The position numbers were made by a program, and so were the translations under genes. DNA of 64,000 nt from Forficula auricularia (lineage: Eukaryota; Arthropoda; Insecta; Dermaptera; Forficulidae): positions 7,496,191 through 7,560,190 of the forward strand of contig JALMQS010000030.1 of assembly GCA_024734495.1 (NCBI GenBank), written 5' to 3'. Position 1 is the stretch's first letter; each line of letters starts with the position of its first letter. Below, in pieces: positions 3,738 through 63,080 of the stretch. The notes beneath the pieces were generated by a model. The model was given only the letters and a program-made list of their open reading frames with translations, had not been told where the DNA came from and did not search any database.

Positions 3738-3946
3738 ATGAGTTGTTGTAGGGAAATAAGGACAATAGCTTATGCAAATATTTTTTATTTTATACCAACG
3801 TTTCGTCAACTTTGTTGACTTCCTCAGGAGCTCAAAGAAATTAATTTGTTTGAGCCCTGAAAAAGTCGGCAAAGTCGACGAAACGTTGGCATAAAATAAA
3901 AAATATTTGCATAAGCTATTGACCTTATTTCCCTACAACAACTTAT
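3738..3946. repeat. Foldback element U with CTGANGA/GAAACGTT core in each arm
   Basis: A near-perfect palindrome. Arms begin AGTTGTTGTAGGGAAATAAG and continue through ATAGCTTATGCAAATATTTT to the core. On the minus strand the core is CTGAGGA, extra A, hairpin GTCAAC-AAA-GTTGAC, then GAAACGTTGG (3801-3827). The plus-strand arm is degraded (CTGAAAA). See the finding on the shared core. Confidence 0.75.
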
Positions 3947-5105
3947 TAATATTTACAAGTTTAAATTGTACCAGGCCCGTTTTGGGCATAGGCCTCTCCC
4001 AATTTCTTCCATTCTGATAATGCTTCATACAGTGACTAAAATATTTATTGAAACTATTGGAGTCTTTGTCAAAATCCCATGTTATTGTAATAGATAAAAA
4101 TTTTTCAAGCCCTTTACTGAGTTTATACATATAACTTGATCGTGAGTAAATTGTTGGATGGCTAATAATCTTGAACGTCCTGGTTGAGTCCAGTTATAAT
4201 ACTTGCATCCCACTTGGATTGATTTGTAAGACTTCTAACAGTCTGTCCCATAGAAAATATACCTTGTCAGGGTAAATGGCATTGTCTGTACTGACAGAGG
4301 CTAGTCATTATTATATCTATAAATTGATAAATGTTTAAAAACTCAAAAGTCATCACTTAGATCAATATGGATTACACCTTCAAATATAATTACACTATAC
4401 ATCCTGAATATTTTTTATAAAACATTATTAAAATAATTATATAGCGCCGTTTTCATACACCCTAGATGAAATAAATAAGAATCTGACGGTCATTATACGG
4501 TCGTATTTGAATATCCTATCTTGAAGGAGAGCGTCAAGATTAATATTGCCACCAGCACTCCTCAATTGAATTCCTTATTTCCGTTTCTTAAGTCCCCTTC
4601 ATTACAAGAGCAATAATCAGTATTGAGGGAACGAGACAGAGGGAGTCATAAAAACCTCTCAGACTATTGAAATGAATCTGGGATCAACTTAGATTGCCAT
4701 TTCGGTTATTTATTCAAACTTTTAATGAGAATTCACACTTTAACGAGTGAAACGATGCCATTCGAAGTCTCGCCCTAAAAAAAATAAAAAAGAAACACGA
4801 AATATTAAGAAGGGAATTTCGGCGGCTTCTCTTTCAAACACCTTAAGATTTGACTTTAATGATTAAAATCGAGGATTTAACTTTGACGGAGATGTTAGCA
4901 AATATGATTAAAAATATCGCAATATACAGGCATTAGTAGAGGATGTTGTTAAACCCATATCTTGAATAGGGAAAAACGCCTGTAATGTCGGCAACCTGAG
5001 AGTACAGCTCAAAATGAATGGGATGTTTACTCCAGGTTATCGATGTTGCAGTCATCATAGGGTTAACATTTCTCCCTGAATACACAGAGCACAAAATTTT
5101 CTTTT
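3947..5105. other. Mostly single-copy sequence, no gene seen
   Basis: No repeat shared with the rest of the window was noticed and no exon could be supported. Small ORFs present have no recognisable domain. Confidence 0.4.
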
Positions 5106-5109
5106 AATT

Positions 5110-5445
5110 TAACCGTTGAATTTTTAGTTAAATCACACATAATTAATTATAATTATTTATTGAACACGAATAAATAATACAATAAAACTACGACGTTTCG
5201 ATCGAATTATTCTGCGATCGTTCTCAAGTATGAGCACTCACTCCGATTATAGGTTAACTGAGTGGGAGTCGGAGTGGGTGGTCATACTTGAGAACGATCG
5301 TAGAATAATTCGATCGAAATGTCGTAGTTTTATTGTATTATTTGTTCGTGTTCAATAAATAATTATAATTAATTAAGTGTGATTAAACTAAAAATTTAAC
5401 TATTAATATAATTAATCACAAAAATAAAAGTTTCAACACTTTAAT
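5110..5445. repeat. Foldback family T, full palindrome
   Basis: Two arms of about 145 bp in inverted orientation around an ACTCCGAT centre. Each arm carries AATAATACAATAAAACTACG, then GACGTTTCGATCG and GATCGTTCTCAAGTATGA. Read outward, the core is CTTGAGAA, stem CGATCG, a 10-base loop, stem CGATCG, then AAACGTCG, a variant of the core in the other foldbacks. Other copies or halves: 3227-3375, 19745-19948, 21905-22080, 34622-34798, 35890-36195. Confidence 0.75.
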
Positions 5446-5833
5446 TTATTTTAATTTGATACAATTATTAAATTATAATTATTTTTGAAATACGATCCTT
5501 AATTTTATTTAATTAAAATATTTTCTTTAGAGTTGTTAAATTTTGAGGGAGTAGTTTGTCTAATGTAGTCCGGTTATCTATTTAATTTAGAGTCAAATTA
5601 GTCATCGATTTCTGCTATCTTTGGCTGTAACTTTAACTCATTGCACACATATCAGACGGCTAGCTTATTTAACTGTCAGTCCAACTGTTTTTTACAATAA
5701 ATGGGAAAACAAGTGGGAAATCTATTTCGGAAAACAATAACAATTTCTTGAAAACGTGGTTTAAGAATGTATAACATTATCATAATCTTAAATTATGTTT
5801 TTTAAAGTAATAAATTTAATATAAGTATATATA
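5446..5833. other. AT-rich spacer, nothing recognised
   Basis: No gene or shared repeat seen. Confidence 0.4.
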
Positions 5834-6691
5834 TTTTTTACTTTACCATACAGGGTATGGTCAAGTATTGTAATCGTGCATGAGAAAAAAGTGGTTTTTT
5901 CCTTCTTTTTTCCAAATATATCAAAAACGGCTAAAACTATTTTGATTAAAAAAATTGAGCGAAACCAGGTCATTTCGCTCTACAAAAAAAGCCCAAATAA
6001 GTGAACATCGAAAAAATTATATTTTTCGAGATAATAATTGTTTTGTCAAAATGACTGTTAGTCTGTCTGGTTGTCTGGTTGGGTCTCCGTTAGTCTGTGC
6101 GTTACCAAATTTTTGTGGACGAGCTAGCTCAAAAACTTGTGTGAATATCGAAACCAAATTTCACACATAGTTTTGGTTCATTGAGATTAAGAGCTGATTA
6201 GATATTGATGCATATCGACGCCAAAATTAAGGGGGGGGGGGGGTTAAGAATTAAAAATCTAGGCTATTTTAGCAAAATCAACCAAATTTTGTATACATAA
6301 TCAGTGGGACCCCAGAAGTCTAAAAATGCAAAACCTAACCCCCCAAAATTGGAGGTGGGAGGGGAGGTGTAAGATTAAAAAATGAAAATATAGGCTCTTG
6401 TACCAAACTCAACCAAATTTTGTATAAATAATCAGTGCGACCCCAGAAGTCTAAAAATGGAAAAACTAACTGTCAAAAATGGGTGGGGGGTCAAAAAATG
6501 AAAATAAAGGTTCTTGTTCCAAACTCAACCAAATTTTGTGTACATAATCAGTGGGCACACAGTAATCTAAAAATGCAAAAACTAACCCCCCCCCCCCTAC
6601 ATGATTATAAATAATTTTATTAAATATAAGTGAGATGCCAGGTTGTATGGTAAAGTCAAGTGGATGGTCACATCAGAACACGTCAGCTTAA
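5834..6691 (+). mobile_element. Family E (Helentron-like non-autonomous element), near full length
   Basis: Starts TTTACTTTACCATACAGGG, with a terminal hairpin (CCATAC/GTATGG) followed by AAGTATTGTAATCGTGCATG. It then has a conserved non-coding block (CTCAAAAACGGCTAAAAC, GTTAGTCTGTCTGG). Next come two to three ~115-bp tandem units, each holding a G-run, TTGTATACATAATCAGTGGG and AAAAATGCAAAAACTAACC. It ends GTATGGTAAAGTCAAGTGGA plus ACACGTCAGCTTA. The inverted ACTTTACCATAC/GTATGGTAAAGT pair sits subterminally at both ends. Subterminal inverted repeats, an end hairpin and central tandem repeats match the DINE-1/HINE plan. No Rep/helicase protein is present, so the class is inferred. Confidence 0.6.
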
Positions 6692-7365
6692 TTTAGATAA
6701 TAATGAAAAAAAAATCAAGATTACATTTTAGAAGGAGAAATGTTGAGTTACTTCAGGGTAATTCAAGGGGTGAATCGAGTCAATAGGATTTGTGAAAGTG
6801 GTAAATTTTGAGAATGATGAAACCAGAAAGAATAATTAATTTAGGTGACATTTTAGGTTCGATTTTCTTTCAATTTGACTATAAAGATGCATTAAAATAA
6901 AAGTGAAAGTAGTGAAAAGATTCTACGATATGCCATGTTATGGCTGTATTCAAGAAAATGCATAATGTAAAGTGGAATCCAACAAAGAAAATTTCTCTCA
7001 AAACTTTAAGAATAAAATTCAAAAGAAATTTATAGAAAATTTAGAACCGTGCAACTATAAGATAGGCAACATTGTGTCTTGTCGGGCAATTGAGGGGATC
7101 TTAACAACTTACGAAAATCAAACTCTAAATTTGGTTTCAAAATTCATTTATGTGTGGTTTATTTAAAAACACATCTTACTTTCTAACAAATTAAATAAGT
7201 TAATATAGAATTATTGTTTTAAGAAAGTTTTGAGTGATGAATTCAATCTCGTGTTGAACAAATTAAATTATTTTTTCGAATTCTGTCGATTTAATAGAAA
7301 AACAAAAATTGTACGATTAAAACAGAAGAGTGCCCAAATGAGATTATGTTTTGTTTCTTGTACAA
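6692..7365. other. AT-rich sequence, nothing recognised
   Basis: No shared repeat or credible exon seen. Short ORFs here have no domain signature. Confidence 0.4.
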
Positions 7366-7697
7366 TTGTCCGCCTCCCTGGTGTAATGGTCAGCATCTCT
7401 GGCTGGCCGGAGTTCTCGGGTTCGATTCCCGGCTATACCCAGACATTTTTTCTGTAAGTATAAGGTTTGGTAATAAAAATTAAGTGGGAGATAAATTTAA
7501 CCAAATTTATCGTTCGGAGAATTTACCACTGCTCGAAACTTAGTAAATTGGATTGTATCTAACTTTCTGAGATTTGGCTCGTGATCCCGGCTTCTTTCCT
7601 TCTACTCTGTTCTTTTCACGATGGAGGGGCTATCCCATTCAGGCTTTTAGGGGATCCACCTTCTGGTGTATCTCCTTCTCACATCAATATCAAAAAA
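7366..7697 (+). mobile_element. tRNA-derived SINE family M, full length
   Basis: The tRNA-like head has an A box (CTGGTGTAATGGTCAGCATC) and a B box (GGGTTCGATTCCCGG) at 7372-7432. A body follows (GTGGGAGATAAATTTAACC, ACCACTGCTCGAA, CTTTCTGAGATTTGGC, ACTCTGTTCTTTTCACGATG), then the 3' end CTCCTTCTCACATCAATATC and an A-run. Headless copies of the body lie at 59750-59983 and 63662-63990. Because the acceptor ends do not pair, this is a SINE and not a tRNA gene. Confidence 0.8.
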
Positions 7698-7967
7698 AAA
7701 TTAGCAATTAGAACTAAGCAAGATCATATCTTGCCAAAAGATAGTAGTTTTTAGCTTTTAATAAACATCTTTTTACTGAAAAAATAAATAAATAAATAAA
7801 AACTATAGATGTTTATTTTTTATTTTAAATCAATTCCTCCATGTCTTCAAAAATGTGTTCCCTTCAATGTCACCTGAATTGGTGCATTTGGTGGAAAATT
7901 CTAGATCTCTAATAACTTTGATTACAAGAAGAACATTCGAACAGTGTGAGTTAATAAAAGCTCTGAT

Positions 7968-8600
7968 ATAATAATAATAATAATAATATTTTTTATTGTT
8001 AAATGATAAATAAATTGAATTGCTTCTTTCCAGTAATTTATTTTATTATTCAAATGGTTAATCCAAATATTTCGAGAGCGCTTTCGGCATCTCTTCCTCA
8101 GTGGAAACCACTCCCCCACCAATGTGCCGACCCCATCAGTTTGTACAGAACATTGATAAAAGCTTGATCAAACAACACACATACATATATATATATATAC
8201 AAATTAAAATAAGATAACATACAGTATTTACAATTATTTACATTCCATTTACATTTTTCAATCCGAAAATCATTTTAAATTTCATTCGGACTTCATTGTG
8301 AATAGATGTAAATAATGGTATATACTTGTTTCGGCCCCAAGGCTCGTATGTTATCTCATTTTGAATTTGTATTTGTATATTATATATATATATGTATGTG
8401 TGTGTTGTTTAATCAAGCTTTTATCAATGTTCTGTACAAACTGATGGGGTCGGCACATTGGTGGGGGAGTGGTTTCCACTGAGGAAGAGATGCCGAAAGC
8501 GCTCTCGAAATATTTGGATTAACCATTTGAATAATAAAATAAATTACTGGAAAGAAGCAATTCAATTTATTTATCCTTTAACAATAAAAAATTAATATAT
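7968..8600. repeat. Foldback element Q, long near-perfect palindrome
   Basis: Arms of about 240 bp (about 7985-8222 and 8345-8594) around a ~120-bp centre. Each arm includes AAGCTTGATCAAACAAC, TGGGGTCGGCACATTGG and CCAAATATTTCGAGAGCG or its complement. The core on the plus strand (8479-8510) is CTGAGGA, extra A, GAGA, loop, TCTC, GAAATATTTGG. The same core occurs on the minus strand in the left arm. Confidence 0.8.
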
Positions 8601-10200: not shown

Positions 10201-10800
10201 ATAAGCCGTTTTTGAAATATAACACGGTTGTCTCAATAAACTCAATATTGCCAGAAATTAAATTGTATTGCATTTAAGTTTTTAAAATCGGCTTAACCAT
10301 AGCCCTATTACAAATTACAAGTAACTTCCTGATTTACAAATTAAAATACATTTTTCTTATACTACTTCATAAATAAAATAAAATAATATTGGTAGAAAAT
10401 AATATTTGTCTTAATATTGAGAAAAAAATCTTTAACTCATAATATAGAACGGGTTCCCTCAGGGTAGTAGGCTGAATTTATATAGCCTAGAATCTTCCTC
10501 AATAAACGGGCTATCTAATGCAAAATAATTTTTCAAATCGGATGATTATTTTCTGAAGATAGCTTCCTCAAAGAGCCAAACTAACTAGAGTAGTATATAA
10601 ATATAGATTATAGATATATAGATTAAGCTGCACTTTTGTGCCAAGTTATACTTTCTAAGTCAAACTGCGGTCAAAAAAAAGCAGAGAGCGTACCGAGTCT
10701 TAACAAAAAATATCTTCTCCAATTTGCAAAACGTTTGTTCATAGAAAAATTAAAAATCAGATAATGAAAAGATATACCCATTATCAGTTTAGTTGGTAGG
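10201..10800. other. AT-rich sequence, nothing recognised
   Basis: No gene or shared repeat noticed. Confidence 0.4.
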
Positions 10801-16009: not shown

Positions 16010-16559
16010 ATAAAAAAATAAGCTGACGTGTTCTGATGTGGCCATCTACTTGACTTTACCATACAACTCCTGCTCTCACTTACATTAATATTTAATAAAA
16101 TTATTTATAATCATGTGGGGGGGGGGGGGGGGGGGTAGTTTTTGCATTTTTAGACTCCTGGGACCCACTGATTATGTATACAAAATTTGGTTGAGTTTGG
16201 TAAATGACAAAGATTTTCATTTTTTGACCCCCCCCCCCCCCATTTTGGGCGGTTAGTTTTTTGCATTTTTAGCTTCTGGGGTCCATTGATTATGTATACA
16301 AAATTTGGTTGAGTTTGCTCAAACGACCTAGATTTTTAATTTTTAACCCCCCCTCGACCCCCCTTAATTTTGGGTCGAAATATAATTTTTCGATGTTTAC
16401 TTATTAGAGCTTTTTGTTGACCTAAATGCTATGGTTTCGTTCAATTTTTTTAATCGAAATAGTTTCAGCCGTTTTTTAGATATTTTGAAAAAAGAAGGAA
16501 AAACCCACTTTTTTCATGCACGATTACAATAAATTGACCATTCCCGGTATGGTAAAGTA
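16010..16559 (-). mobile_element. Family E, copy 4
   Basis: Minus orientation. The distal end is AAGCTGACGTGTTCTGATG with TGACTTTACCATACAA. Tandem units follow with an 18-G run and a 13-C run. It ends TGCACGATTACAATAAATTG and GGTATGGTAAAGTAA. Central blocks are partly deleted. Confidence 0.6.
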
Positions 16560-16572: not shown

Positions 16573-17313
16573 TTGGATAAATTAAAACACAGAGTTTTGT
16601 TATCTTTGTATAAAACGACGACAAATTTTAAGTGTTCAAGCAAAAGTCCTTTCCAAGATTATTGTGATCCAAAAGTATGTGCATTAAGGATTTTGTGATT
16701 CATTTGTAAGTTTGATTAAATTGAAAGTTGTTTTGCCGAGAGTAGCAGAATTTTTATATATTGAAGGAGACAATAAAAGAGTGTGTCTTCTGTGGCATTA
16801 TAAGATTTTTAATTTATTTAAAACGAGACTATAGTTTCGAAAGCTTTGCCCTCTTCATCAGTCTATTATAATTGATTCTCGGGAATTATGTAATTATATT
16901 CTTATATTATTATTATAATTCCTGTGAATCAATTCTAATAGACTTGTTGAAAGGAGCAAAGCTCTCGAAACTATGGTCTCGTTATAAGCTTAGAATTAGA
17001 AATTTATACACCTCTTTGATTGTCTCCTTCAATGTATGTTTGAAGCTGAGTTTCGCGAATTTTTAATGATAAAATTGGTATAGAATTAAAAAAAAAAATC
17101 ATATACCTGCCAATCTAAAATTGCAAGGTTTTGATAAATTTGTTACAAGGAGGGGTCGGTTTTTCCATTTTTAATATAATATGATGTTTTATCTTATAGA
17201 AAAAACTGTTTTGACAAAGAGTGAGCCACTGAGGAAGTCAAAATAAATTTGCCAAGGTCTGGCTTACTTAATAAAAACTAAAAACTCTGTGTCTTAATTT
17301 ATCCAATTCCTTG
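16573..17313. repeat. Nested foldbacks W (outer) and R (inner)
   Basis: The outer inverted pair is ATTGGATAAATTAAAACACA (from 16573) and TGTGTCTTAATTTATCCAAT (to 17313). Inside it, family R has arms TATTGAAGGAGACAATAAA and TTTGATTGTCTCCTTCAAT (about 16760-17040). The R core on the minus strand (16835-16861) is CTGATGA, extra A, GAGGGC-AAA-GCTTTC, GAAACTATAGTCTC. A diverged copy is on the plus strand at 16945-16980. The 60121-60260 palindrome is another R copy. Confidence 0.65.
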
Positions 17314-25631: not shown

Positions 25632-25906
25632 ATAAAGAAAATTAAGTGTATATCGATGAGGCAGTCCAAAAAAGAAGAAGATAATTTACACTATCTTTTA
25701 TTCATAAAACCGACGTTTCGGAGGCTATTCCCTCCTTCTTCGGGTTTTGAAGAGTCAGTGAAGGAAATCCACTGACTTTTCAAAACCCTGAAGATGAAGG
25801 GAATAGCCTCCGAAACGTCGGTTTTATGAATAAAAAGATAATGTAAATTATCTTCTTTCTTTTTTTGGACTGCCTCATCGATATACACTTAATTTTCTTT
25901 ATTCTT
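25632..25906. repeat. Foldback element J
   Basis: A palindrome with arms from ATAAAGAAAATTAAGTGTAT through CGATGAGGCAGTCC and ATTTACA to the core. The plus-strand core (25788-25815) is CTGAAGA, extra T, imperfect stem, CCTCC, GAAACGTCGG. The left arm gives on the minus strand CCGAAGA, A, GGAGG-GAATAG-CCTCC, GAAACGTC. The left edge abuts the assembly gap. Confidence 0.75.
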
Positions 25907-26049
25907 TCATTGATCATATCATCAGAACTTGATCAAATTAATGTGGGACCTCATCGATATCCACTTAATCCACTTATCAGCCCGTCTCCAAAAATTACTC
26001 CAATCTTAATAAAGGAAATATTCAATTCTTATGAGCAATAATCGAAATT

Positions 26050-26300
26050 ATAATAAATAAAATCTTAATTGAAAAGTTTTTGTTTTGCCGAGAGTAGCAG
26101 AGTTGTTGATTCACAAAGAGAAACGAGGTTGTCCTCGCTTGATGCAAATAAACATATACACATATATCTCAAGATGATATATCTGTTTATATTACTATTT
26201 TATAAATAATATATATACAGATATATCATCTTGAGATATATGTGTATATGTTTATTTGCATCAAGCAGAGGACAACCTCTTTGTTTCTCTTTGTAAATAA
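26050..26300. repeat. Foldback element (R-related), GAGGACAACCTC arms
   Basis: Inverted arms AAAGAGAAACGAGGTTGTCC and GGACAACCTCTTTGTTTCTC surround ATGCAAATAAACATATACAC and GATATATCATCTTGAGATAT. The leading AGTTTTTGTTTTGCCGAGAG is shared with 30295-30320. The same arms recur at 30050-30700. Confidence 0.65.
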
Positions 26301-26589
26301 AATCTTATATATAAAATGAATTTAAAACATTCATTTTAGGTTAAAAATAAAATAAAATGAGAGAGTCTTCTGTTTTTTAATAAAATAATTTTTAATTATT
26401 TCTAGAGACTATAGTTTCGAAGTTTCTTTTGTTCAACTAATATTAAAACATTCATTTAAACCCCGCCAACATTTCTCTATTAATGAATTGAATTTTATTA
26501 TCATTTTCTGATTCATTCGCACAACTCTTTTTCTCATAATATGCATGAAAAATATTATCTTAAGGCACTACATATTCTCAAAATCACTA

Positions 26590-27010: not shown

Positions 27011-27070
27011 AGTCGTTTTTTTTTCTAATGTGTTGTTGAAAATGAATTATTTAATTAAAAATTCAATATT

Positions 27071-27390
27071 AGTAACAGGAATAGCAGGAAAATTGGACAA
27101 AAATTAAAAACACATAGTTTTTATTAAATGGGTCAGACGTTTCGTCAATTTATTTTGACTTCCTCAGTGGCCCATTTTATCACTCTTTATCAAAAAACAA
27201 TTTCACTATAAGACAAGAAAAGTCCAAGATTGTTCATCAGAATTGGAGCCAGGAAAGATTAATGATGTTTTGACGTATAGTAAATTTTTTTTTACAAAGA
27301 GTGATAAAAATGCCTACTGAGGAAGTCAAAATAAATTGACGAAATTCTGTGTTTTTAATTTTTGTCCAATTCCCTGCTATTCCTGTTACA
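27071..27390. repeat. Foldback element, GGACAAAAATTAAAAACAC arms
   Basis: The left arm (GTAACAGGAATAGCAGG, AATTGGACAAAAATTAAAAA) mirrors the right arm (TTTTTAATTTTTGTCCAATT, CTGCTATTCCTGTTAC). Cores: minus 27140-27167 CTGAGGA, A, GTCAA, loop, TTGAC, GAAACGTC; plus 27317-27344 CTGAGGA, A, GTCAA, loop, TTGAC, GAAATTC. Both copies keep the same stem. Confidence 0.75.
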
Positions 27391-27469
27391 AATTTTTTAT
27401 GGATGCGAATGATACAACATTCAATATTAGTTTTAGTTTTTGATATATAATATAATGCAGATCTAAAAT

Positions 27470-30049: not shown

Positions 30050-30700
30050 TAACCACAAAGAGAAACAAAGAGGTTGTCCTCTGGTCGATGCAAATAAACA
30101 TACACACATATATATCGAAATGATATATCTGTATATATATATATTATTTTATTTGTTTGAGACTATATGTGGTCTTCATCATCAGTCTTTTTTAATTATA
30201 AATGTTGTTTTTCATGGAGTTTTCCACCACTTTTGTTGTCCATGACAAATAATTCACAATCAATGGCAATGGAATGACACCTTTGATTTAATTGAAAAGT
30301 TTTTGTTTTGCCGAGAGCAGCAGAGTTGTTGATTAATAAAGAGAAACAATGAGGTTGTCCTCTGCTTGATGCAAATAAACATACACACATATATATCGAA
30401 ATGATATATCTGTATATATATATATTATTTAATTGTTTGAGACTATAGTTTCGAAGACTTGGTCTTCATCATCAGTCTTTTTTAATTATAAATGTTGTTT
30501 TTCATGGAGTTTTCCACCACTTTTGTTGTCCATGACAAATAATTTACAATCAATGGCAATGGAATGACAATTCCTTTGATTTAATTGAAAAGTTTTTGTC
30601 GAAACTATAGTCTCAGACAAATAAATAATATATATACACAGATATATCAACTCGATATATATGTGTGTATGTTTATTTGCATCAAGCAGAGGACTAACTT
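30050..30700. repeat. Direct plus inverted duplication of an R-related foldback
   Basis: The block 30050-30290 (AAAGAGAAACAAAGAGGTTG, ATGCAAATAAACATACACAC, AAATGATATATCTGTATA, TCATCAGTCTTTTTTAATT) is repeated directly at 30335-30590, and its first part returns inverted at 30600-30700. The clearest core is on the minus strand at 30449-30475: CTGATGA, extra T, GAAGAC-CAA-GTCTTC, GAAACTATAGTCTC. Confidence 0.65.
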
Positions 30701-30994
30701 TTCAATTAAAAATTATCCTTTTGAAACATGCAGGTTTCTTTTTTTCCAATAAAATATATCATTGACCGTCGAATTTATTTAGATATTTACTTTAAAAAAC
30801 CACATAAATGCTATGTTTAGATGTAAACATAAACAGTAGAAATACAACGCATTGCCAAATCATAAAAGAGTTATTATTAGGTGATTTGAATAAATCAAAC
30901 TAACTTTTATTATGTATTTTTTTTTTTTATAATTGTTTTTATTACAAACATTTACGGCTTTCATACTATTTATTTTTTAATTCTATTATTTTTA

Positions 30995-34835: not shown

Positions 34836-34980
34836 TGACTGAAGATGGCCAAATAAAATTCAGGCCGAAACGTCTTATTAAAGGTGTTTTATTGAACCCA
34901 GTGATTCCATTTTTGGCTGATACCTCCTCCTTCACCTAACACAGTTTCATCACAGCCACGAACTCTAACAATATTCTTTA
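34836..34980 (+). repeat. Half-foldback carrying a clean CTGANGA/GAAACGTC core
   Basis: The core at 34839-34874 is CTGAAGA, extra T, GGCC, 12-base loop, GGCC, GAAACGTC. It is followed by TTATTAAAGGTGTTTTATTG and a unique tail. The opposite arm is missing. This is a separate family from its T neighbour. Confidence 0.55.
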
Positions 34981-35000: not shown

Positions 35001-35812
35001 TTTTTACTTTACCATACAGGGTATGGTCAAGTATTGTAATTGTGCATGAAAAAAGTGTTTTTTTCGAAATATCTAAAAAACGGCTAAAACTATTTTGATT
35101 AAAAAATTGAGCGAAACCATAGCATTTCGGTCTACAAAAAAGCCCTAATAAATGAACATGGAAAAAATTATATTTTTCGAGATAATAATTATTTTGTAAA
35201 AAAATTTGTTAGTCTGTTCGTCTGTTATTCTATTATTTTGTTAGTCTGGGCGTTATCAAATTTTTGTGGATGGCCAAACTCAACCAAATTTTGTATACAT
35301 AATCATTGGGACCCCAGAAGACTAAAAATGCAAAAACTAACCACTCTAAATGGGGGGGGGTCAAAAAATTAAAAACTAGACCCTTGTACCAAACATAACC
35401 AAATTTTGTATACATAATCCATGGGCCCACAGAAGTATAAAAATGCAAAAACTAATAGCTCAAAATGGGGGGCGGGTTAAAAATGAAAATCTAGGCCCTT
35501 ATACCAAACTCAACCAAATTTTGTATACATAATCCGTGGGCCGTCAGAAGACTAGAAATGCGAAAACTAACCACGTAAAATGGAGGGGGGGGAATATGGT
35601 CAAAAAATGAAAATCTAGGCCCTTGTACCAAACTCAACCAAATTTTGTATACATAATCAGTGGGACACCAGAAGTATAAAAATGCAAAAAGTAACCCCCA
35701 CCCCTACATGATTATAAATAATTTGATTAAATATTAAATATAAGTCAGGGGCCAGGTTGTATGGTAAAGTCAAGTGGATGGCCACATCAGAACACGTCAA
35801 CTTATTTTTTTT
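35001..35812 (+). mobile_element. Family E, copy 6
   Basis: From TTTACTTTACCATACAGGG to AGTCAAGTGGATGGCC and ACACGTCAACTTA. Four tandem units of ~110 bp with G-runs of different length lie in the centre, more than in copy 1. Confidence 0.65.
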
Positions 35813-45072: not shown

Positions 45073-45863
45073 CATTATTATAATGTAGCACAGATTGTTT
45101 TCATTTTCTCTGAAAATTGTAGAATATTTAATTTCGTAATGTCGTACGTATATTGAAATAAAGTGGACCCTGATAAAAAGAAAACAGAAGAGGGTGTCGC
45201 ACTGAATGATGAAGGAGGCGTTCGAGAGAGGGTGGGTGGTGGATGGTGGATGAATCAACGCAAAAGGAATGAGTGTTGAAGCTCTGGAAGGGTGGAAAGG
45301 GGGTTGGTTCAATCTGCAAGAAGGGCTGCTGGAGACGTTTTCACAAACCAAGATAGAGATAGCAAATATATATATATATATATATGCATCTGTGTGTGGG
45401 TGGGTATGGAATGAGGTGGATGTACGCAACTTAGACGGACAGACGGACGATGTATGTGTGTGTGTGTGTGTATGTGTGTTCTGGATGAATAAAACATCAA
45501 GCCTACGAAGAAGAAGAAGTAAGAGAAGAAGCGCGAGCAACTGAGACGGAAATATATATATATATATATAACTGGGATGGGGGCCAAAGAAGAAGATAAA
45601 AAGGGGGTGTGTAAGGAGGGGGGGGGGGGGACTGTGACGCCAAGCGTGCGAGAAAGGAAATATTGAAAATTGAAAAAAGTTCCATGTGTAGAATTTATAT
45701 AATATATACGATATATATCATTCCCACTTTAATTACATCTTATATATTTATATTGAATCGCTTTTTCATCAACCCCGCTTTTTTTCACCCTTTAGCTAAA
45801 TTTACGCAATCGTAAAACTTCCCCCCCCCCCCACAGACATTTTTTTTAAGTAAATAATTGCTT
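45073..45863. other. Mostly single-copy purine-rich sequence with microsatellites
   Basis: Purine-rich on the plus strand (45190-45350), with (TA)n at 45367-45384 and 45551-45570, (GT)n at 45455-45475, (AAG)n at about 45508-45535 and a G-run near 45620. Open frames in several phases reflect low stop density in biased sequence. No domain recognised. Confidence 0.4.
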
Positions 45864-45866
45864 ATA

Positions 45867-46389
45867 ATTGAATGTAATGGAAGGCAGCCCAGAGGTAGTG
45901 AGGAAAGAAAAAATTAACACATATAAAATAATGTGTAATTTATTGGAATCCTTCCTCCTTTCCTTTCGAACCGACGTTTCGGAGGATTTTTCCCTCCTTC
46001 ATCAGGGTTTCAAAGGGTCAATGAATGAAACAAATAAAATGTTTCCTTCTTCTCTCCACAGTAGTGTTCAAAAACTTTCTTCTTTTTTAGCAAAGGCATA
46101 GGAAAACAATTTTTTTTTTTACTCCTTTTTTAAACACTACTGTGGAGAGAAGAAGGAAACATTTTATTTGTTTCATTCATTGACCCTTTGAAACCCTGAA
46201 GAAGGAGGGAAAAATCCTCCGAAACGTCGGTTTGAAAGGAAAGGAGGAAGGATTCCAATAAATTACACATTATTTTATATGTGTTAATTTTTTCTTTCCT
46301 CACTACCCTGCCTGGGCTGCCTTCCATTACATTCAATTAAAATTTCTACCAGTCCGTCTCTCTCCAGAGAAAATTTCGTTGCAAAAAAA
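45867..46389 (+). mobile_element. Retroposed palindrome P, copy 1
   Basis: Arms run from TTGAATGTAATGGAAGGCAG through AATTAACACATATAAAATAA, TTGGAATCCTTCCTCC and the core to CAATGAATGAAACAAATAAA, and back. Beyond the right arm is an asymmetric tail (ACCAGTCCGTCTCTCTCC, GAAAATTTCGTTGC) ending in eight A. A 13-bp duplication ATAATTGCTTATA flanks the whole at 45854-45866 and 46390-46402. The plus core (46196-46224) is CTGAAGA, extra A, GGAGG-loop-CCTCC, GAAACGTCGG. A minus core in the left arm has CTGATGA. No protein is encoded. Confidence 0.8.
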
Positions 46390-48215: not shown

Positions 48216-49490
48216 GAATCGACTTAAAATCAAAAAGAATTTAGTCTTTTTGATTTTAAGTCGATTCTTCTACGTTTTCAGTAGAGGTTGCTATTAATAG
48301 TCAAAACATCAAAAATGGAATTCAATAAGGTTATTCCTCTAGTATTAGATGAGAATCGATCGTTATTTTTGATTTTAAGTCGATTCCTCCATGTCTTCAG
48401 CAATGGTTACCAATAATAATCGAAACGTCAAAAACCTAATGTAGAATTGTTATTCCTCAGGTATTAGATGAGAATCGATGGCTATTTTTGATTTTAAGTC
48501 GATTCCTCTATGTCTTCAGCAATGGTTACCAATAAAAACCGAAACGTCAAAAATCCAATATAGAATGATTATTCCTCAAGTACTAGATGAGAATCAATCG
48601 CTATTTTTGGTTTAAAGTTGATTTCTCTATGTCTCAGGAATGGTTACTAATAAAAACCGAAACGTCAAAAATCCAATATAGAATGGATATTTCTCAAGTA
48701 TTAGATGAGAATCAATCGCTATTTTTTATTTTAAGTCGATTCCTCTATGTCTTCAGCAATGGTTACCAATAAAAACCGAAACGTCAAAAATCCAATATAG
48801 AATGATTATTCCTCAAGTACTAGATGAGAATCAATCGCTATTTTTGGTTTAAAGTCGATTTCTCTATGTCTTCCGCAATGGTTACTAATAAAAACCGAAA
48901 CGTCAAAAATCCAATATAGAATGATTATTCCTCAATTACTAGATGAGAATCAATCGCTATTTTTGGTTTAAAGTCGATTTCTCTATGTCTTCCGCAATGG
49001 TTACTAATAAAAACCGAAACGTCAAAAATCCAATATAGAATGATTATTCCTCAATTACTAGATTAGAATCAATCGCTATTTTTGGTTTAAAATCGATTTC
49101 TCTATGTCTTCAGCAATGGTTACTAATAAAAACCGAAACGTCAAAAATCCAATATAGAATGATTATTCCTCAAGCACTAGATGAGAATCAATCGCTATTT
49201 TTGGTTTAAAATCGATTTCTCTATGTCTTCAGCAATGGTTACTAATAAAAACCGAAACGTCAAAAATCCAATATAGAATGATTATTCCTCAAGCACTAGA
49301 TGAGAATCAATCGCTATTTTTGGTTTAAAATCGATTTCTCTATGTCTTCAGCAATGGTTACTAATAAAAACCGAAACGTCAAAAATCCAATATAGAATGA
49401 TTATTCCTCAAGCACTAGATGAGAATCAATCGCTATTTTTGGTTTAAAATCGATTTCTCTGTCTTCAGCAAAGGTAACGGATAAGAAAAC
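48216..49490. repeat. 120-bp satellite array, about 10 units
   Basis: Unit of 119-120 bp: GGTTACTAATAAAAACCGAA, CGTCAAAAATCCAATATAGA, ATGATTATTCCTCAAG, TAGATGAGAATCAATCGCTA, TTTTTGGTTTAAA, TCGATTTCTCTATGTCTTC. Units on the right are nearly identical and those on the left are diverged, so homogenisation is uneven. The left edge is a perfect inverted pair (GAAGAATCGACTTAAAATC and its complement, 48216-48272). Single units also occur inside family D copy 3 (33926-34215) and at 52340-52495. Confidence 0.9.
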
Positions 49491-53117: not shown

Positions 53118-53992
53118 AATAAGCTGACGTGTTCTGATGTGGCCATCTACTTGACTTTACCATACAACCTGTCCCCTTATTTACATTAATATTTAATAAA
53201 ATTATTTATAATCATGTAAGAGGGGGGGGGGCGTTAGTTTTTGCATTTTTAAACTCCTAGGGGCACACTGATTATGTATACAAAATTTGGTTGAGTTTGG
53301 TAAATGGCCAAGATTTTCATTTTTTGACACTCCACCCCCCCCCCCAATTTGGGCGGTTAGTTTTTGCATTTTTAGACTTCTGTGGACCCACTGATTATGT
53401 ATACAAAATTTGGTTGAGTTTGGTAAATGGCCAAGATTTTCATTTTTTGACCCTCCACCCCCCCCCCTCATTTTGGGCGGTTAGTTTTTGCATTTTTAGA
53501 CTTCTGGGGACCCACTGATTATGTATACAAAATTTGGTTGAGTTTGGTAAATGGCCAAGATTTTTAATTTTTAACCCCCCACCCCCTTCCACCCCCCTTA
53601 ATTTCGGGTCGATATGGACCAAAATCGAATCAGCTCTTAATCTCAATGGACCAAAACTACTTGTAAAATATGGTTTCGATATTCACACTAGTTTTTGAGC
53701 TAGCTCGTCCACAAAAATTTGGTAACGCACAGACTAACGGACACCCAACCAGACAACCGGACAACCAGACTAACAGACATTTTGACAAAACAATTATCAT
53801 CTCGAAAAATATCTTTTTTTCGATGTTCAGTTATTAGAGCTTTTTTGTAGAGCGAAATGCCACGGTTTCGCTCAATTTTTAATCGAAATAGTTTAAGGCG
53901 TTTTTTAGATATTTTGAAAAAAAAGAAGGAAAAATAACAGTTTTTCCATGCACGATTACAATACTTGATCATACTCTGTATGGTAAAGTAAA
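53118..53992 (-). mobile_element. Family E, copy 8, near full length
   Basis: Distal end AAGCTGACGTGTTCTGATG with ACTTGACTTTACCATACAA, three tandem units, CTAGTTTTTGAGCTAGCTCG, an imperfect tandem of CCAGACAACCGGACAACC, and the hairpin end TCTGTATGGTAAAGTAAAA. Inserted at the extreme end of element O (53993). Confidence 0.7.
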
Positions 53993-54804
53993 AACAATTT
54001 CTTTATATTAAATATATTGATAGAGTTGAGCATTTTTAATGAGCTCTTATTTATTCCAAAGATATTTTATGAATAATCAAGATATATCGAAATCATTCCA
54101 AATATGAACAATTTTTTAGATAATTAATACATATATATTATATACTTGAGTGATCTATTTCATTCTATTAGATATCTCTTAATATCAAATAAATGTCTTT
54201 TTTTCTCCTAGTAAGACCTCTTATCTAAAGAAATGTTGTTTTTTATCATATAACGACTTCGATTATTTGCAAATAGTGATATCTTAATAATTAAGATATT
54301 TTTAAAAAAATTTAACAAGAATATAATTATATATTAAAATTAGATTACCGTGTACCTTAAATCAAATATAATAATTAAAATTTTTATCTAATGAATTCAA
54401 CCAAATGAATAATTAAAATAAATATTTATATAAGTCATTTGATTGAATATAGTAGATTCTACATCAAATGAATATACTCATTTTCTAGTCACAAATACCT
54501 ATATTTATTATAAATAAAAAATATTCAAGTTTATATCATTTCTTGTCGTTATTACGTATTATTCCATTTAAATACCTAACTATCAAATTTAACTATTCCA
54601 CTATTTTACTCAAATAACAATATTTTCATAATTTACATATTGGTGCTTGGTTCAAATAGCGACATCTTAACTATTAATATATCTAGAGTTGATCCTAAAA
54701 TATGAGAATACCAAAAATACGTATACCATTTATACCTATTGAACAGAGATCGATTTTGCAATAATTAAATTCACCATCTATTCATATCAAATATAATTTC
54801 TTAA

Positions 54805-56116
54805 TTGAATGTAATGGAAGGCAGCCCAGAGGTAGTGAGGAAAGAAAAAATTAACACATATCAAATAAGGTGTAATTTATTGGAATCCTTCATCCTTTTC
54901 TTTCGAACCGACGTTTCACAGGATTTTTCCCTCCTTCTTCAGGGTTTCTAAGGGTCAATGAATGAAACAAATAAAATGTTTCTTTCTTCTCTCCACAGTA
55001 GTGTTCAAAACTTTCTCCTTTTGTAACAAAGGCATAGAAAAACAATTTTTTTTCCTCCTTTTCTTAATTAGATCTCTTACTAGATTTCTTAATTATTCTA
55101 ATTGAGAAAAGGAGGAAATTTTTTTCTATGCCTTTGTTAAAAGAAGTTTTGAACACTACTATGTGAGAGAAGAAGGAAACATTTTATTTGTTTCATTCAT
55201 TGACCCTTTGAAACCCTAAAGAAGGAGGGAAAAATCTTCCGAAAACGTCGGTTTGAAAGGAAAGGAGGAAGGATTCCAATAAATTACACCTTATTTGATA
55301 TGTGTTAATTTTTACTATACCATACAGGGTATGGTCAATTATTGTAATCGTGCATGAAAAAAGTGGTTTTTTTCCTTCTTTTTTCAAAATATCTCAAAAA
55401 CGGCTGAAACTAATTTGGTTAAAAAAATTTGAGTGAAACCATGGTATTTCGCTCTACAAAAAAGCCCTAATAAGTAAACATAGAAAAAATTATATTTTTT
55501 GAGAAAATAATTTTTTTGTCAAAATCTCTGGTAGTTAGTTAGTCTGTGAGTTACCAAATGTTTGTGGACGAGCTAGCTCAAAAACTAGTGTGAATATCAA
55601 AAACAAATTTCACACGTAGTTTTGGTCCATTGAGATTAAGAGCTGAGTAGATTTTGGTGCATTTCGACCCAAAATTAAGGAAGGTCGAAGGGGGTCGAAG
55701 GGGGTTAAAAATTAAAAATCTAAGTCGTTTGAACAAACTCAACCAAATTTTGTATACATAATCAGTGGGACCCCCAGAAGTCTAAAAATGCAAAATCTAA
55801 CCGCCCAAAATGGGGTGGGGGGTCAAAAAATGAAAATCTTGGCCATTTACCAAACTAAACCAAATTTTGTATACATAATCAGTGGGTCCCAGGAGTCTAA
55901 AAATTCAAAAACTAACCCCCCCTACATGTTTATAAATATTTTTATTAAATATTAAATATAAGTGAGGGGCCAGGTTGTATGGTAAAGTCAAGTGGATGGC
56001 CACATCAGAACATTTCAGCTTTTTCTTTCCACACTACCCCTGGGCTGCCTTCCATTACATTCAATTAAAATTTCTACCAGTCCGTCTCTCTCCAGAGAAA
56101 ATTTCGTTGAAAAAAA
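54805..56116 (+). mobile_element. Retroposed palindrome P, copy 2, containing family E
   Basis: Same arms and tail as 45867-46389, with the tail ending in A7 and a 12-bp duplication ATAATTTCTTAA at 54793-54804 and 56117-56128. Cores are at about 54905-54945 (minus) and 55216-55245 (plus, decayed to CTAAAGA). Family E copy 9 (55310-56021) is inserted in the right arm. Confidence 0.75.
55310..56021 (+). mobile_element. Family E, copy 9
   Basis: TTTACTATACCATACAGGG to GTATGGTAAAGTCAAGTGGA and CATTTCAGCTT, with two tandem units. Sits inside palindrome P. Confidence 0.65.
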
Positions 56117-56152
56117 ATAATTTCTTAACTATAAATATATCGTTTTTTTCAG

Positions 56153-57435: not shown

Positions 57436-57579
57436 TAAATAACATGGAGATGATTGATTTCAATAATGATTGATACATATTATTTTTCGAAAATTTTGTA
57501 AATGACTAATAGCCCAGGCAAATTAGACCGAAAAAATGCCGCGTTATCCAAAAAATATGCATGAGCTGAAAATAATTGC

Positions 57580-57870
57580 ATAATAAAATTTGAGCAAGAT
57601 GCGAAGTAGGTCTCACAAAAAAGAAATAAAACAAAATTGAGTTTTGAATTCGATATATTTCGGGGTGAGCCTATCATCAGGAGTCATCAGGAGTCAAAAA
57701 AACGTTTTCTTTGACTCCTGATGATGGGCTCACCCCCGAAATATATCGAATTCAAAACTCAATTTTGTTTTATTTCTTTTTTGTGAAACCTACCTCGCAT
57801 CTTGGTCAAATTTGATTATTATATTAAAATGTTTCACCTAGAATCAACACCTAACTCCTTAAAAGTTATT
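57580..57870. repeat. Foldback element S
   Basis: Arms AAATTTGAGCAAGATGCGAA, AATAAAACAAAATTGAGTTT and GAATTCGATATATTTCGGG are mirrored. The plus core (57718-57741) is CTGATGA, T, GGG, loop, CCC, GAAATATATCG. The tail AAATGTTTCACCTAGAATCA is shared with the related insertion at 62459-62765. Confidence 0.7.
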
Positions 57871-58794: not shown

Positions 58795-59518
58795 TAATTT
58801 TTAAGAAAAAATAAAAACCGACTTCAAAAAATTAAATGCAACAAATAAAATACACTAAAAGGTATAAAATAATTATTATCTTATTTAGTTACAACTAAAC
58901 GACGAAATATTAACATGAAATTACTTTTTGAAGTCGGTACCAAACAAACTATACCTATAAGCGAGCATACCCTCCAAACGTACTAAGTAAGATCCGTCGA
59001 GTGCGATTCATAAAAGGTATATGTTTGGCACCGACTTCAAAAAGTAATTTCATGTTAATATTTCGTCGTTTAGTTGTAACTAAATAAGATAATAATTATT
59101 TTATACCTTTTAGTGTATTTTATTTGTTGCATTTAATTTTTTTGAAGTCGGTTTTATTTTTTCTTAAATTTTATTTTTCTCTTTTTAGTGATGTTATTAA
59201 TAGTGATCCTATAATCAGAACTTGACCAAATTAATATTGCACCATCCCTAAGATACCCCCTTTCCAATAAAAAAAGAATCATCGAAATCGGTTCATAAAC
59301 AAAGAGGTTAGGTCTAAACAAACCTAATAAAAAAGGTCTAATACCTATGAAAAAAACGAAAAAAAATTGGACCAATCGGAAGCTAGACTGGACCAAATGC
59401 AAAAAAAATTTTCAAAATCGGTTGAGAATTGGCAGAGATATGAGGTAACATAGGCACAAAAAAAAAAAAAAAAAAAAAAATAGATAGAGAACCTCCTCCT
59501 TTTTTGAAGTCGGTTAAA
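58795..59518 (-). mobile_element. Family G element, copy 2 (inside repeat H)
   Basis: Reverse orientation. The palindromic half comes first (AAAACCGACTTCAAAAAATT, GAAGTCGGTACCAAAC, GTTTGGCACCGACTTC, TTTTTTTGAAGTCGGTTTTA), then the proximal half, ending AACCTCCTCCTTTTTTGAAG and TCGGTTAAAAA. A 22-base A-run lies at about 59459-59480. Confidence 0.7.
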
Positions 59519-59749
59519 AATGAAACAAGAATCAAGTTTCTAGGATAATTGTTTTTCATTTAATGAATTTTTTTGCAGTTTTTCAAAAACTTCAACCTCA
59601 TTGCGCCACGGGTTACCATTGTCCAATTAAGATGAAACTTTGCCAATATCATTTTTTAGCAAATTAGCAACTATTATGAGGGTCAGCTCCTCAAAAAGAG
59701 TGGTTTTTTGTGACACCTAATTAGCATAATTCACTTTTCCGTCAAGTTT

Positions 59750-59983
59750 TAAATTAAGTTGGAGATAAATTTAACCTAATTTATCGCACGGAGAATTACC
59801 ACTGCTCGAAGCCCTTAAAAAACTTAGTAAATTGGATTGTATCTAACTTTCTGAGATTTGGCCCGTGATCCCAGCTTCTTTCCTTCTACTCTGTTCTTTT
59901 CACGATGGAGGGGGCATCCCATACAGGCCATTAGGGATGTACCTTCTGGTGTATCTCCTTCTCACATCAATATCATTAAAAAA
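59750..59983 (+). mobile_element. SINE family M body without tRNA head
   Basis: AAGTTGGAGATAAATTTAAC, ACCACTGCTCGAAGCCC, TTCTGAGATTTGGCCCG, CTCACATCAATATC and an A-run. Interrupts repeat H. Starts at the same point in the body as the copy at 63662. Confidence 0.7.
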
Positions 59984-60120
59984 AAAGTTGGTCAAAATTG
60001 CCTATCTTCGACGATCAATTGTGACTGAACCAATTTTAACTTTTAAGTACGTTATTCTATGCGAAATTTTATGCTCTTTCATATTGATAAGAGTGGAATT
60101 TTCTGTACCAGGTATGGTTT

Positions 60121-60260
60121 TATATATTGAAGGAGACAATAAAGAGTGTGTCTTCTGTTGGAATTATAAATTTTATTTATTTATAACGTTATAAATAAAT
60201 AAAATTTATAATTCCACCAGAAGACACACTCTTTTATTGTCTCCTTCAATATATTAAAAA
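60121..60260. repeat. Palindrome R, near-perfect copy
   Basis: Arms TATTGAAGGAGACAATAAAG, AGTGTGTCTTCTG and AATTATAAATTTTATTTATT are mirrored around AACGTT at about 60187. Homologous to the inner palindrome at 16760-17040 but lacks the CTGATGA/GAAAC insert between the arms. Confidence 0.75.
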
Positions 60261-60472
60261 TTCTGCTACTCTCGACACAAAAACTTTCAACTTAACATTG
60301 TTTTAGAGTTATAATCGAAAATTTGAAAAAGTCCAAAATTTTTGTGGTTTGTAGGCTCTCAAAAATTTAGCAACAGCCAGAAACAGTCGCAAATGTTATT
60401 TGGGATGCCTAACGTCGTTTAAAATTATTTCCAGCTTGTGCATATTTATTTGCCAGCAGAAGTCTAATTTTT

Positions 60473-61185
60473 AACCGACTTCAAAAAAAGGAGGAGGTTC
60501 TCTATTCGACTGAATTTTTTTTTTTTTTTTGTTCCTATGTTACCTCATATCTCCGCCAATTGTGGACCGATTTTAAAAAAAATTTGCATTGGGTCCAGTC
60601 TACCTTCCGATTGGTCCCATTTTTTTTTTCATAGGTATTAGACCTTTTTTGTTAGGTTTGTTCAGGACTAACTTCTTTGTTTATGAACCGATTTCGATGA
60701 TTCTTTTTTTATTGGAAAGGGGTATCTTAGGGATGGTGTCATATTAATTTGGTCAAGTTCTGATGATATAATCACTATTAATAACATCACTAAAAAGAGA
60801 AAAATAAAAATTTTTAAGAAAAAATATAAAACCGACTTCAAAAAAATTAAATGCAACAAATAAAATACACTAAAAGGTATAAAATAATTATTATCTTAAT
60901 TAGTTACAACTAAACTACGAAATATTAACATGATATTACTTTTTGAAGTCGGTGCCAAACATATACATTTTATGAATCGCACTCGACGGATCTTACTTAG
61001 TACGTTTGGCGGGTACGCTCGCTTATAGGTATAGTTTGTTTGGCACCGACTTCAAAAAGTAATTTCATGTTAATATTTCGTAGTTTAGTGGTAACTAATT
61101 AAGATAATAATTATTTTATACCTTTTAGTGTATTTTATTTGTTGCATTTAATTTTTTTGAAGTCGGTTTTATTTTTTCTTAAAAA
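60473..61185 (+). mobile_element. Family G element, copy 3
   Basis: AACCGACTTCAAAAAAAGG, GTTACCTCATATCTCCGCCA, TTCCGATTGGTCCC and TTGGTCAAGTTCTGATG, then the palindrome with four GAAGTCGGT words. Same orientation as copy 1. Confidence 0.72.
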
Positions 61186-61202
61186 TTTTCTTAGACTATC
61201 TC

Positions 61203-61356
61203 CGAGGGGTGAACCGCGACCTAATATCGTGTACACCTACTTCCTCTTCCACTTCCAAGTAGAAGACGATAGATGCTATTATCTAATAAATTCCAAAATA
61301 ATTCCACATAATTCCAAACACGTGTACACCTAATTCCAATCGCGGTTCACCCCTCG
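61203..61356. mobile_element. hAT-like MITE, family I, copy 3
   Basis: 154 bp, termini CGAGGGGTGAACCGCG and CGCGGTTCACCCCTCG. Flanks ACTATCTC and GCTATCTC match at 7 of 8 bases. Interior shows AATTCCAAAATAATTCCACA, the 10-bp rhythm seen in the minisatellite at 43756-44375. Confidence 0.85.
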
Positions 61357-62268
61357 GCTATCTCCTATAGTAAAATAAGGAAGTTTATATACGATATATG
61401 TATATAATTTCTGGTGTATTAAGCAAATGAAAGATTCTTCAAATACTTATTTTTTTTCAATCAATTTTTCATTTTCATTCTTTCTTTGAAGAAGACGAAA
61501 ACCAAATAAATTCAAATTGAAAAATGAATGTGCTCTCCATAAATAAATAAGAAAAAAAAAGTTTTTGCCTCTGGAATTCGACTGATTTCAAAAAACGAAG
61601 GAAGGGTCCCTCTCTTCTAACTGGACAACTCATTGGAAACACACCCACACACACACACCCACAGATATTTACTTACACAGTAGAGCGCAAAAAGAAGAGA
61701 GACAATTGGAAGTAGTATTTGCATTTGATCAAAACTCCTTTGTATTTCAAATGTTTAAATTAAGTTAGCTATTACGTCGGATAGCCGCCCTCCTTAGACG
61801 GGGGCTGCTGCACCCCCCCCTCCCCCAAACTTGGTACCAATCGATTCCAATGCCCCTACTACCCTCCCCCACCCCACATCTCTTTTAACTCGCTTTACAA
61901 TTTATTCAAGGAACTATGACTGGTTTTTTTCCTCCCCCGATTTCAATAAAGAAAATCAAATTTCTTTCTAAATCTTCTAACAACAAATAGATAATTTATT
62001 TATCAATTAAATTTTTGAATTTATTTTTCAAAAATAAGATGTAAATTTTTATAATACCAATATTAAAAATTAAAAAAAAAAAAAACAATACATTCAATGT
62101 GAATGACTAAACTGATGTGGCCAAAATTACGAAAATTTAAATTATTAATATATTTTAAAATCCACTAAGGGACCATTCATAAAAAAGGGGTATTGCTTAA
62201 CGTGATGATATGTGACAAGAGGGGGGGGGCGAATGTAACTTTTGCACTTAATCAATTTTATTTTAATT
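61357..62268. other. Mostly single-copy sequence, no gene seen
   Basis: Contains (CA)n near 61640, C-rich tracts at 61811-61830 and 61860-61885, and a decayed E-like distal word (GACTAAACTGATGTGGCC) at 62104-62121. No exon supported. Confidence 0.4.
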
Positions 62269-63080
62269 TTCACTTTATCATACAGTGTATGGTAATCATG
62301 CATGAAAAAAATGTTTGTTTTTTTACTTCTCTCGAAATATCTCAAAAACGGCTGACACTATTTTGATTAAAATAATTGGGCGAAATCATGGCGTTTTGGT
62401 CTACAAAAAAGTCCTCATGACTGACCATCGAAAAAATAATATTTTTCTAGATAATAATCCAAAGTAGACTTCCTACCTTTTCTCCCTCCACTAATTTTAA
62501 ATATTTACCCTTTTGTTATCTTAAAAAATAAATTTTACCATTGACTTGTATTCAATTTCGACTTATTCAGGTCAGTTACTTTCTGTATCTCCTGAAGATG
62601 GGTTAGTCACCCGAAATATATATATCGAGATTAAAGATTCTCTAAAAATAAATTCGTTTTATTTTTTTATATCTTAATGTGAAACCTACCAAGTATTTTT
62701 ATCCAATAATTTTAAAAAATGTTTCACCAAGTACCAACACCAAATTCCTTAAAAACTAATAAATGTTTTGTCAAAATGTCTGTTAGTACGTATTTAGATC
62801 AATCTCATCCAAAGTTTGTACCTATACATAATCAGTGGGCCCCCAGAAGACTATAAATAAAAAACTAGCTACCTAGAATGGGGGGGGGGGGCTGTAGGGT
62901 CAAAATTGAAAATCTAGGCCCTCAACCAAATTTTGTATACATAATTTGGTTGAGTTTTGTCCAAGGGCCTAGATTTTCATTTTTTGACCTTCCCTCGTAA
63001 ATGATTTTATTAAAAATTAAACATAAGAGAGGCCCAGGTGTATGGTAAATTCATGTGGTTGACCACCTCAGTTTATGTTC
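62269..63080 (+). mobile_element. Family E, copy 10, interrupted by foldback S-like sequence
   Basis: ACTTTATCATACAGTGTATG and CGGCTGACACTATTTTGATT, then an insertion at 62459-62765 (core at 62592-62616: CTGAAGA, T, GGGT, loop, ACCC, GAAATATATAT). It resumes at TTTTGTCAAAATGTCTGTTA and ends GTGTATGGTAAATTCATGTG. Both E halves are in register, so the S-like piece is younger. Confidence 0.6.

Follow-up and report, generated by a model that had tools for sequence, protein, structure and literature searches.

The window analysed here, a stretch of 64,000 nucleotides from the insect Forficula auricularia (assembly GCA_024734495.1, contig JALMQS010000030.1, positions 7,496,191 to 7,560,190 of the forward strand), contains a series of foldback elements with inverted arms, together with some single arms of related kinds. 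These elements share a compact core, consisting of CTGANGA, one extra base, a short stem, GAAA and a short self-complementary word, which a first-pass annotation had likened to the core of the hammerhead ribozyme and linked to Penelope-like elements (PLEs). In the following, we argue that the foldbacks are very probably the insertion signature of PLEs that carry minimal type I hammerheads, and that each probably records two starts of reverse transcription, one per target strand.

Foldback elements and cores in the window

All 11 cores listed by the first-pass annotation are present at their coordinates and on their strands. A scan of both strands of the window for CTGANGA, 0-3 extra nt, a stem of 3 bp or more and GAAA, with 30 dinucleotide shuffles as background, gave 17 raw matches. 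Exactly one extra base was found in 14 of them, each time A or T, compared with a mean of 0.5 and a maximum of 2 one-extra-base matches per shuffle. The 14 matches correspond to 13 places, as 45964-46005 is an alternative reading of the core at 45977-46005; the match at 54901-54942 (-) is a decayed core in which the scan runs on to a later GAAA. The scan thereby adds 8070-8101 (-), 45977-46005 (-) and the decayed core at 54942 to the earlier list, and misses 25788-25815 because of an A-C mismatch in stem II. Since the cores at 25788 and 46196, at 57718 and 62592, and at 16835 and 30449 are related in their immediate surroundings, the earlier count of ten or more families whose arms are unrelated is a slight overestimate. 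The short palindrome after GAAA, described for every listed core, is lost at 27317 (GAAATTCTG). A search of the window for inverted partners found none for the cores at 34839 and 62592. The elements are as follows; L numbers denote loci fetched from sequence collections, and signed arm positions are relative to the core.

3734..3950: foldback f1; core 3801-3827 (-), CTGAGGA-A-GTCAAC-AAA-GTTGAC-GAAA-CGTT; flank word AATATTTACAA shared, offsets 38 and -3
7988..8592: foldback f2; cores 8070-8101 (-) and 8479-8510 (+), both reading outward; no target duplication found by comparison of flank words
16756..17037: foldback f3; core 16835-16861 (-), palindrome ACTATAGT; similar to the cores of GIY-YIG loci L089 and L091
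25632..25902: foldback f4; core 25788-25815 (+), the one with the stem II mismatch; tail piece at 25949-26013
26065..26301: core-less, 5'-truncated Penelope foldback; left arm +45..+183 with tail, right arm +43..+142 without; flank word TAAATAAAATCTTA shared
27065..27396: foldback f5; cores 27140-27167 (-) and 27317-27344 (+)
30054..30702: f6, partial tandem and inverted pieces of the Penelope pseudo-long terminal repeat (pLTR); core 30449-30475 (-), identical to the core of Penelope array L106
34815..34938 (+): f7, single arm; core 34839-34870 (+), CTGAAGA-T-GGCC...GGCC-GAAACGTC
45862..46384: f8 foldback; cores 45977-46005 (-) and 46196-46224 (+); flank word AAATAATTGCTTATA shared
54801..55316: second f8 foldback; decayed core 54914-54942 (-); right arm interrupted, with part of the tail resuming at 56020-56121 (+)
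57580..57819: foldback f9; core 57718-57741 (+), CTGATGA-T-GGG...CCC-GAAATATATC; flank word TGAAAATAATT shared, offsets 2 and 50
62580..62754 (+): f10, single arm, related to f9; core 62592-62616 (+), CTGAAGA-T-GGGT...ACCC-GAAATATATATATC

The hammerhead-like fold and its extra base

In the 1.06-Gb assembly of 845 contigs, the pattern CTGANGA-N8-28-CGAAACGTC has 30,612 matches (15,410 + 15,202), and the reversed pattern has 5 (0 + 5). Stem II was assessed on 54 distinct matches from 100 listed places, in which the pattern imposes only the closing C of that stem. With a one-base insert, 193/216 stem II cells are paired, compared with 102, 113 and 114 of 216 for inserts of 0, 2 and 3 bases. Stem I, in which nucleotides before C3 pair with nucleotides after H17 as in type I hammerheads, is formed in 275/364 cells at the hammerhead register, against fractions of 0.24-0.45 at eight other registers. 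When each of 19 of the 20 stem types is represented once, the count is 51/76, against 26-34 at other registers. These 20 types, defined by the extra base and the first four stem bases, comprise 96 contexts, 42 of which belong to a single type.

After GAAA, a self-complementary A..T word of 4 or 8 nt (counted from the last A) and then H follow in 91/96 contexts. There is no room for an intramolecular stem III, so such a stem is possible only between two molecules. The CUGANGA ... GAAA core lies around stem II as in the type I hammerhead, and the pairing of stems I and II where that type needs them supports the hammerhead reading proposed in the first-pass annotation. The RNA is accordingly predicted to fold as a type I hammerhead with a tiny self-complementary stem III, and it is from this structure that we infer a ribozyme.

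Stem II does not sit directly on A9, as it does in the canonical layout. The constant extra A or T beside stem II, already noted as a departure from the canonical core, is found in 84/84 distinct contexts from the fetched loci and the window in which the stem measures 4 bp or more (A in 65, T in 19), and no core with such a stem lacks the insert in this material. Of the 54 genome pattern matches, 46 have A at this position, 6 have T and 2 have G.

Two further observations concern this motif. In IMG/VR, a pattern requiring A or T at the extra position was matched by 17 virus contigs, of which 14 have a paired CTGANGA-T-stem-GAAACGTC core (L009, L011-L013, L015-L024). Several of the 14 show, by eye, a closed stem III and a fitting stem I, and an Rfam search at gathering thresholds on nine of these contigs returned one tRNA and no hammerhead. 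In the window, a satellite at 48247-49475 (10.4 copies of 119 bp) has a unit that, by eye, contains T-GGTT...AACC-GAAACGTC without the CTGANGA half, and is perhaps a decayed hammerhead.

Penelope-like elements and the two ends of their insertions

The suggested link to Penelope is borne out by the presence, in the same genome, of the same core upstream of open reading frames (ORFs) that combine reverse transcriptase (RT) and GIY-YIG domains. At L106, tandem PLE units lie 2,909 bp apart, with an 858-aa ORF that matches RVT_1 (1.6e-16) and GIY-YIG (8e-6). Upstream of each L106 ORF, and on its strand, stands CTGATGA-T-GAAGAC-CAA-GTCTTC-GAAA-CTATAGTC, which is the window core at 30449-30475; this core is also present in L107-L111. 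A genome search for GIY-YIG (PF01541) scored 150 of 3,423 candidates, and 30 of the 150 scored matches were examined, plus six fetched as L106-L111. Cores of at least three stem types, one of them like window core 16835, occur in 23 of the 30 loci (two of which are duplicates). The elements have the features of endonuclease-bearing (EN+) PLEs, namely RT and GIY-YIG in one ORF, tandem and inverted pLTRs, a tail (here ~38-43 nt) and a target duplication. The Penelope protein has relatives with these two domains, and among 120 listed of 1,762 relatives, the named ones are insect proteins.

In the window, the pLTR of the L106-type PLE matches at 26065-26301 and 30054-30702. The latter element also holds the start of the ORF frame, with residues 1-40 at 30217-30333 (-) and 4-40 at 30507-30617 (-). 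The ATG inside extra-T cores was considered as the ORF start, as in Anolis, and rejected, as in L106 it is followed by a stop after 8 codons (by eye). Cores of the f4 and f8 types, which are abundant, were seen only once in the 30 GIY-YIG loci (L105, downstream), so these two families look ORF-less. Two of the GIY-YIG loci, L105 and L089, contain two core types within ~1.1 kb, and the families may therefore nest in each other.

Inside foldbacks, 82/84 cores read outward, at a median distance of 105 nt from core start to palindrome edge. Within a family (f4, f8 and PLE), the outer ends are common to the copies and the centres are variable; arm 5' ends are spread between positions -124 and +120, where the lower bound is set by the extent of the reference copies. 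The outer ends fall into two classes, at about +105 and +143 in f4, +143 and +185 in f8, and +139 and +182 in PLE copies. For example, in the window f8 element at 45862..46384, the left arm ends at +143, and the tail is on the right arm, which extends to ~+185. Of 44 arm pairs classified in this way (18 f4, 23 f8, 3 PLE), both ends could be assigned in 37, of which 36 combine one short and one long end, offset by ~40 nt, the remaining pair being short-short. One end lies outside the classes in 7/44 pairs (1 f4, 5 f8, 1 PLE), several of which are interrupted copies. Among wider PLE copies judged by eye, L084, L087, L088, L100 and L109 are mixed. No partner arm was found within reach for L056, L060, L061, L004 and L063.

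Inverted arms, and the occurrence of many short copies without ORFs, would also be expected of DNA transposons of the miniature inverted-repeat (MITE) or Foldback type, in which the core would be a conserved DNA structure or binding site. Yet neither f4, f8 nor the PLE copies have the symmetrical terminal repeats and fixed body of such elements: the outer ends are asymmetric, with the ~40 nt offset in 36/37 classified pairs, and the centres vary among copies of one family. In addition, the core and the same two ends recur in PLE copies with RT and GIY-YIG ORFs, and stems I and II pair as RNA would. We therefore find a DNA-transposon origin hardly credible.

In 62 core-bearing foldbacks, with family references left aside, we searched the flanks for a word of 9 or more bases present on both sides, once directly at the palindrome edge and once 25-55 nt away from it. 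Such an offset duplication is present in 40/62, compared with 1.55 for random positions (maximum 3 in 20 sets) and 2.1 for swapped partners (maximum 5). Any such shared word occurs in 45/62, and one with both sides at the edge in 1/62. The offset duplication is also seen with other core types, in L033, L040, L047, L060 and L074 as well as in window elements f1 and f9.

A PLE insertion could also acquire its inverted repeat by self-priming, in which the cDNA folds back and is copied, as proposed for Adineta in 2013. Head-to-head palindromes are usual in PLEs and were ascribed in that account to self-priming on an antisense template (PMC3846280); here, moreover, arm identity is slightly higher within than between insertions (0.941 vs 0.930 in f4, 0.965 vs 0.939 in f8). 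But self-priming should, as we infer, give equal outer ends followed by the primer flank, and 36/37 pairs are short plus long. The duplication outside the foldback in 40/62 cases, and the small number of insertions (7/20) in which the two arms match each other best, also speak against self-priming, which we consider unlikely.

The route that we favour instead would begin with a PLE RNA whose pLTR contains the core, which precedes the ORF in autonomous copies and lies within the arms in short ORF-less derivatives. The predicted hammerhead would consist of stem I, CUGANGA, the extra A/U, stem II, GAAA, a tiny stem III formed only in a dimer, and C/U before the predicted cut. The PLE enzyme would cut both target strands, and each 3' end would prime reverse transcription of the PLE RNA, an expectation for which there is a precedent in the Anolis PLE enzyme, which cuts and extends both target strands in vitro (PMC11167929). 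On one strand, copying would start proximally, ~100-145 nt 3' of the core, and on the other distally, ~40 nt further. The two cDNAs, 5'-truncated at different points, would then be joined head to head, leaving one arm with the tail, one arm without it, and a target-site duplication outside. The ORF-less families would presumably be mobilised in trans.

As regards cleavage, the template of an arm that spans the core was an RNA uncut at that core, and there is no sign of cleaved RNA as template: 0/88 arm 5' ends lie within 3 nt of the predicted cut. This test is not a strong one because the loci were chosen by core, and such an end could be seen only in the 21/88 arms whose 5' end lies 3' of the core start. 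The arms of the core-less foldback at 26065-26301 start at +43 and +45, 8-10 nt from the predicted cut. In Anolis, hammerhead mutants still insert (PMC11167929), and the role of hammerheads in PLEs has been called unknown (PMC7761336).

Cleavage is central to a third explanation, in which the elements would resemble retrozymes, with tandem transcripts cut by the hammerhead, circularised and reverse transcribed. Animal retrozymes do carry type I hammerheads (PMC7761336), and L075 (G000:C4:1022104-1023703) has tandem f8 units ~120 nt apart, beside an inverted arm. However, head-to-tail neighbours are few (3 '++' and 1 '+-' vs 18 '-+' within 700 bp, among 95 listed places), and the absence of arm ends at the predicted cut, informative for the 21 arms just mentioned, also counts against this explanation, which we judge very unlikely. 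Returning to PLE insertion, a more specific version of it seems possible, though we hold it only tentatively: insertion may be a coupled two-start reaction, as a rule with one initiation per target strand from different RNA sites, in which the template is not made by the hammerhead, uncut RNA is copied through the predicted ribozyme, cleavage possibly acts against or after insertion, and the extra A/U is a fixed feature across these PLE hammerheads.

Several results weigh against the account given here. Rfam returned no hammerhead for the window at gathering thresholds, nor among 46 matches at E up to 5, and focused searches with 91 and 81 bases around two cores found none, so that the match to hammerhead models proposed as a check in the first-pass annotation came out negative. 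The failure is probably due to the one-base insert and the missing stem III; the extra base (W10), at a position that is also open to direct biochemical testing, may account for the failure of the standard hammerhead models to pick up these motifs. The two G-bearing cores among the 54 matches, of which one has a stem of just 3 bp as judged by eye, break the A/T rule, and the 0/88 arm ends at the predicted cut, 21 of them able to show it, give no sign of a part of the predicted ribozyme in template formation. At the level of insertions, the window copy of f4, a rearranged one, is the sole short-short pair; L107 is apparently long-long, with the tail on both ends (by eye); and 22/62 foldbacks show no offset duplication. 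Furthermore, as the partner arm is the best match in 7/20 insertions (1/9 in f4, 6/11 in f8), a single shared template RNA is not established.

What might define the proximal start was also considered. Hairpins can be seen by eye at this position (GGACTG..CAGTCC, GTGAAAC..GTTTCAC and GCAGAG..CTCTGC). In a free search over ten sequences, 20 to 447 of 500 shuffles gave an equally good hairpin, a mostly non-significant outcome that belongs with the adverse results above, and a narrower post hoc test over nine sequences (Fisher p 0.008) leaves the hairpin as a lead. The arm with the proximal start reaches further 5' in 18 pairs vs 7, with 11 ties (p 0.043), which is too weak to claim.

Apart from the foldbacks, the window contains an ORF with a reverse transcriptase domain (RVT_1, 2.2e-36), which we take to be of a non-LTR, Jockey-like element, and another ORF that we presume to be mariner-like and that has no Pfam match at 0.01. 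A zinc-finger-like exon is discernible by eye. A separate abundant repeat of ~115-131 bp occurs as tandem pieces in both orientations at 6234-6591, 16139-16353, 35274-35696, 53229-53586 and 55700-55921.

Comparison with known hammerheads and Penelope-like elements

Minimal type I hammerheads in PLEs, also dispersed in animal genomes, are known from earlier work (Cervera & de la Pena 2014; Lunse et al. 2017; PMC7761336). Those hammerheads are reported to resemble the present ones in their location in the pLTR, in a helix III that is minimal or absent, and in the dimeric action proposed for them. To this the present analysis adds an extra A/T that is near-uniform, the occurrence on such a scale within a single genome, and the rule of one short and one long end. 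The extra A/T, present here in 84/84 well-paired contexts, may already be contained in Lunse 2017. A literature search found no title on hammerheads in foldbacks or on ORF-less PLE foldbacks, part of which Cervera 2014 and Lunse 2017 may cover.

An extra base at the same place, between A9 and stem II, is found in the (+) hammerhead of chrysanthemum chlorotic mottle viroid (CChMVd), where A at position 10 moderately reduces the rate, U gives a 3-4-fold increase, and C and G are detrimental (PMC3705267). The bases tolerated there, A and U, are those of the 84 well-paired contexts here; unlike the cores described here, that of CChMVd belongs to a viroid ribozyme in which loops contact each other. 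More generally, hammerhead alignments are known to include one- or two-nt inserts beside CUGAnGA (PMC10085705).

With respect to the architecture of the insertions, the Penelope elements of Adineta vaga are similar in having direct and inverted pLTRs, a head-to-head junction, a tail on one pLTR and duplications. They are reported to have head-to-head inverted pLTRs with a 31-bp tail on one of them, duplications of 8-10 bp, and pLTRs that are sufficient for insertion in trans (PMC3846280). In Adineta, the one-tail state is optional, whereas here it is seen in 36/37 classified pairs, and the copies studied closely are short ORF-less arm pairs.

These findings bear on the integration route of PLEs and on the reason for which they keep a hammerhead. 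The present genome contains tens of thousands of cores, and as short inverted copies record both starts of reverse transcription, the two-strand extension seen in vitro becomes testable on natural insertions. A close parallel is the Poseidon PLE of Anolis (PAc), which has a hammerhead of stems I and II at the ORF start and two adjacent internal RNA start sites that bound the 'tail', and in which both target strands are extended (PMC11167929). The position of the PAc ORF start, at stem II, points to an extra U in that element as well, whereas the in-core ATG of L106 leads only to the short frame mentioned above. Finally, the PAc start sites are the same on both strands in vitro, whereas nearly every classified insertion in Forficula auricularia shows both starts, apparently one per strand.

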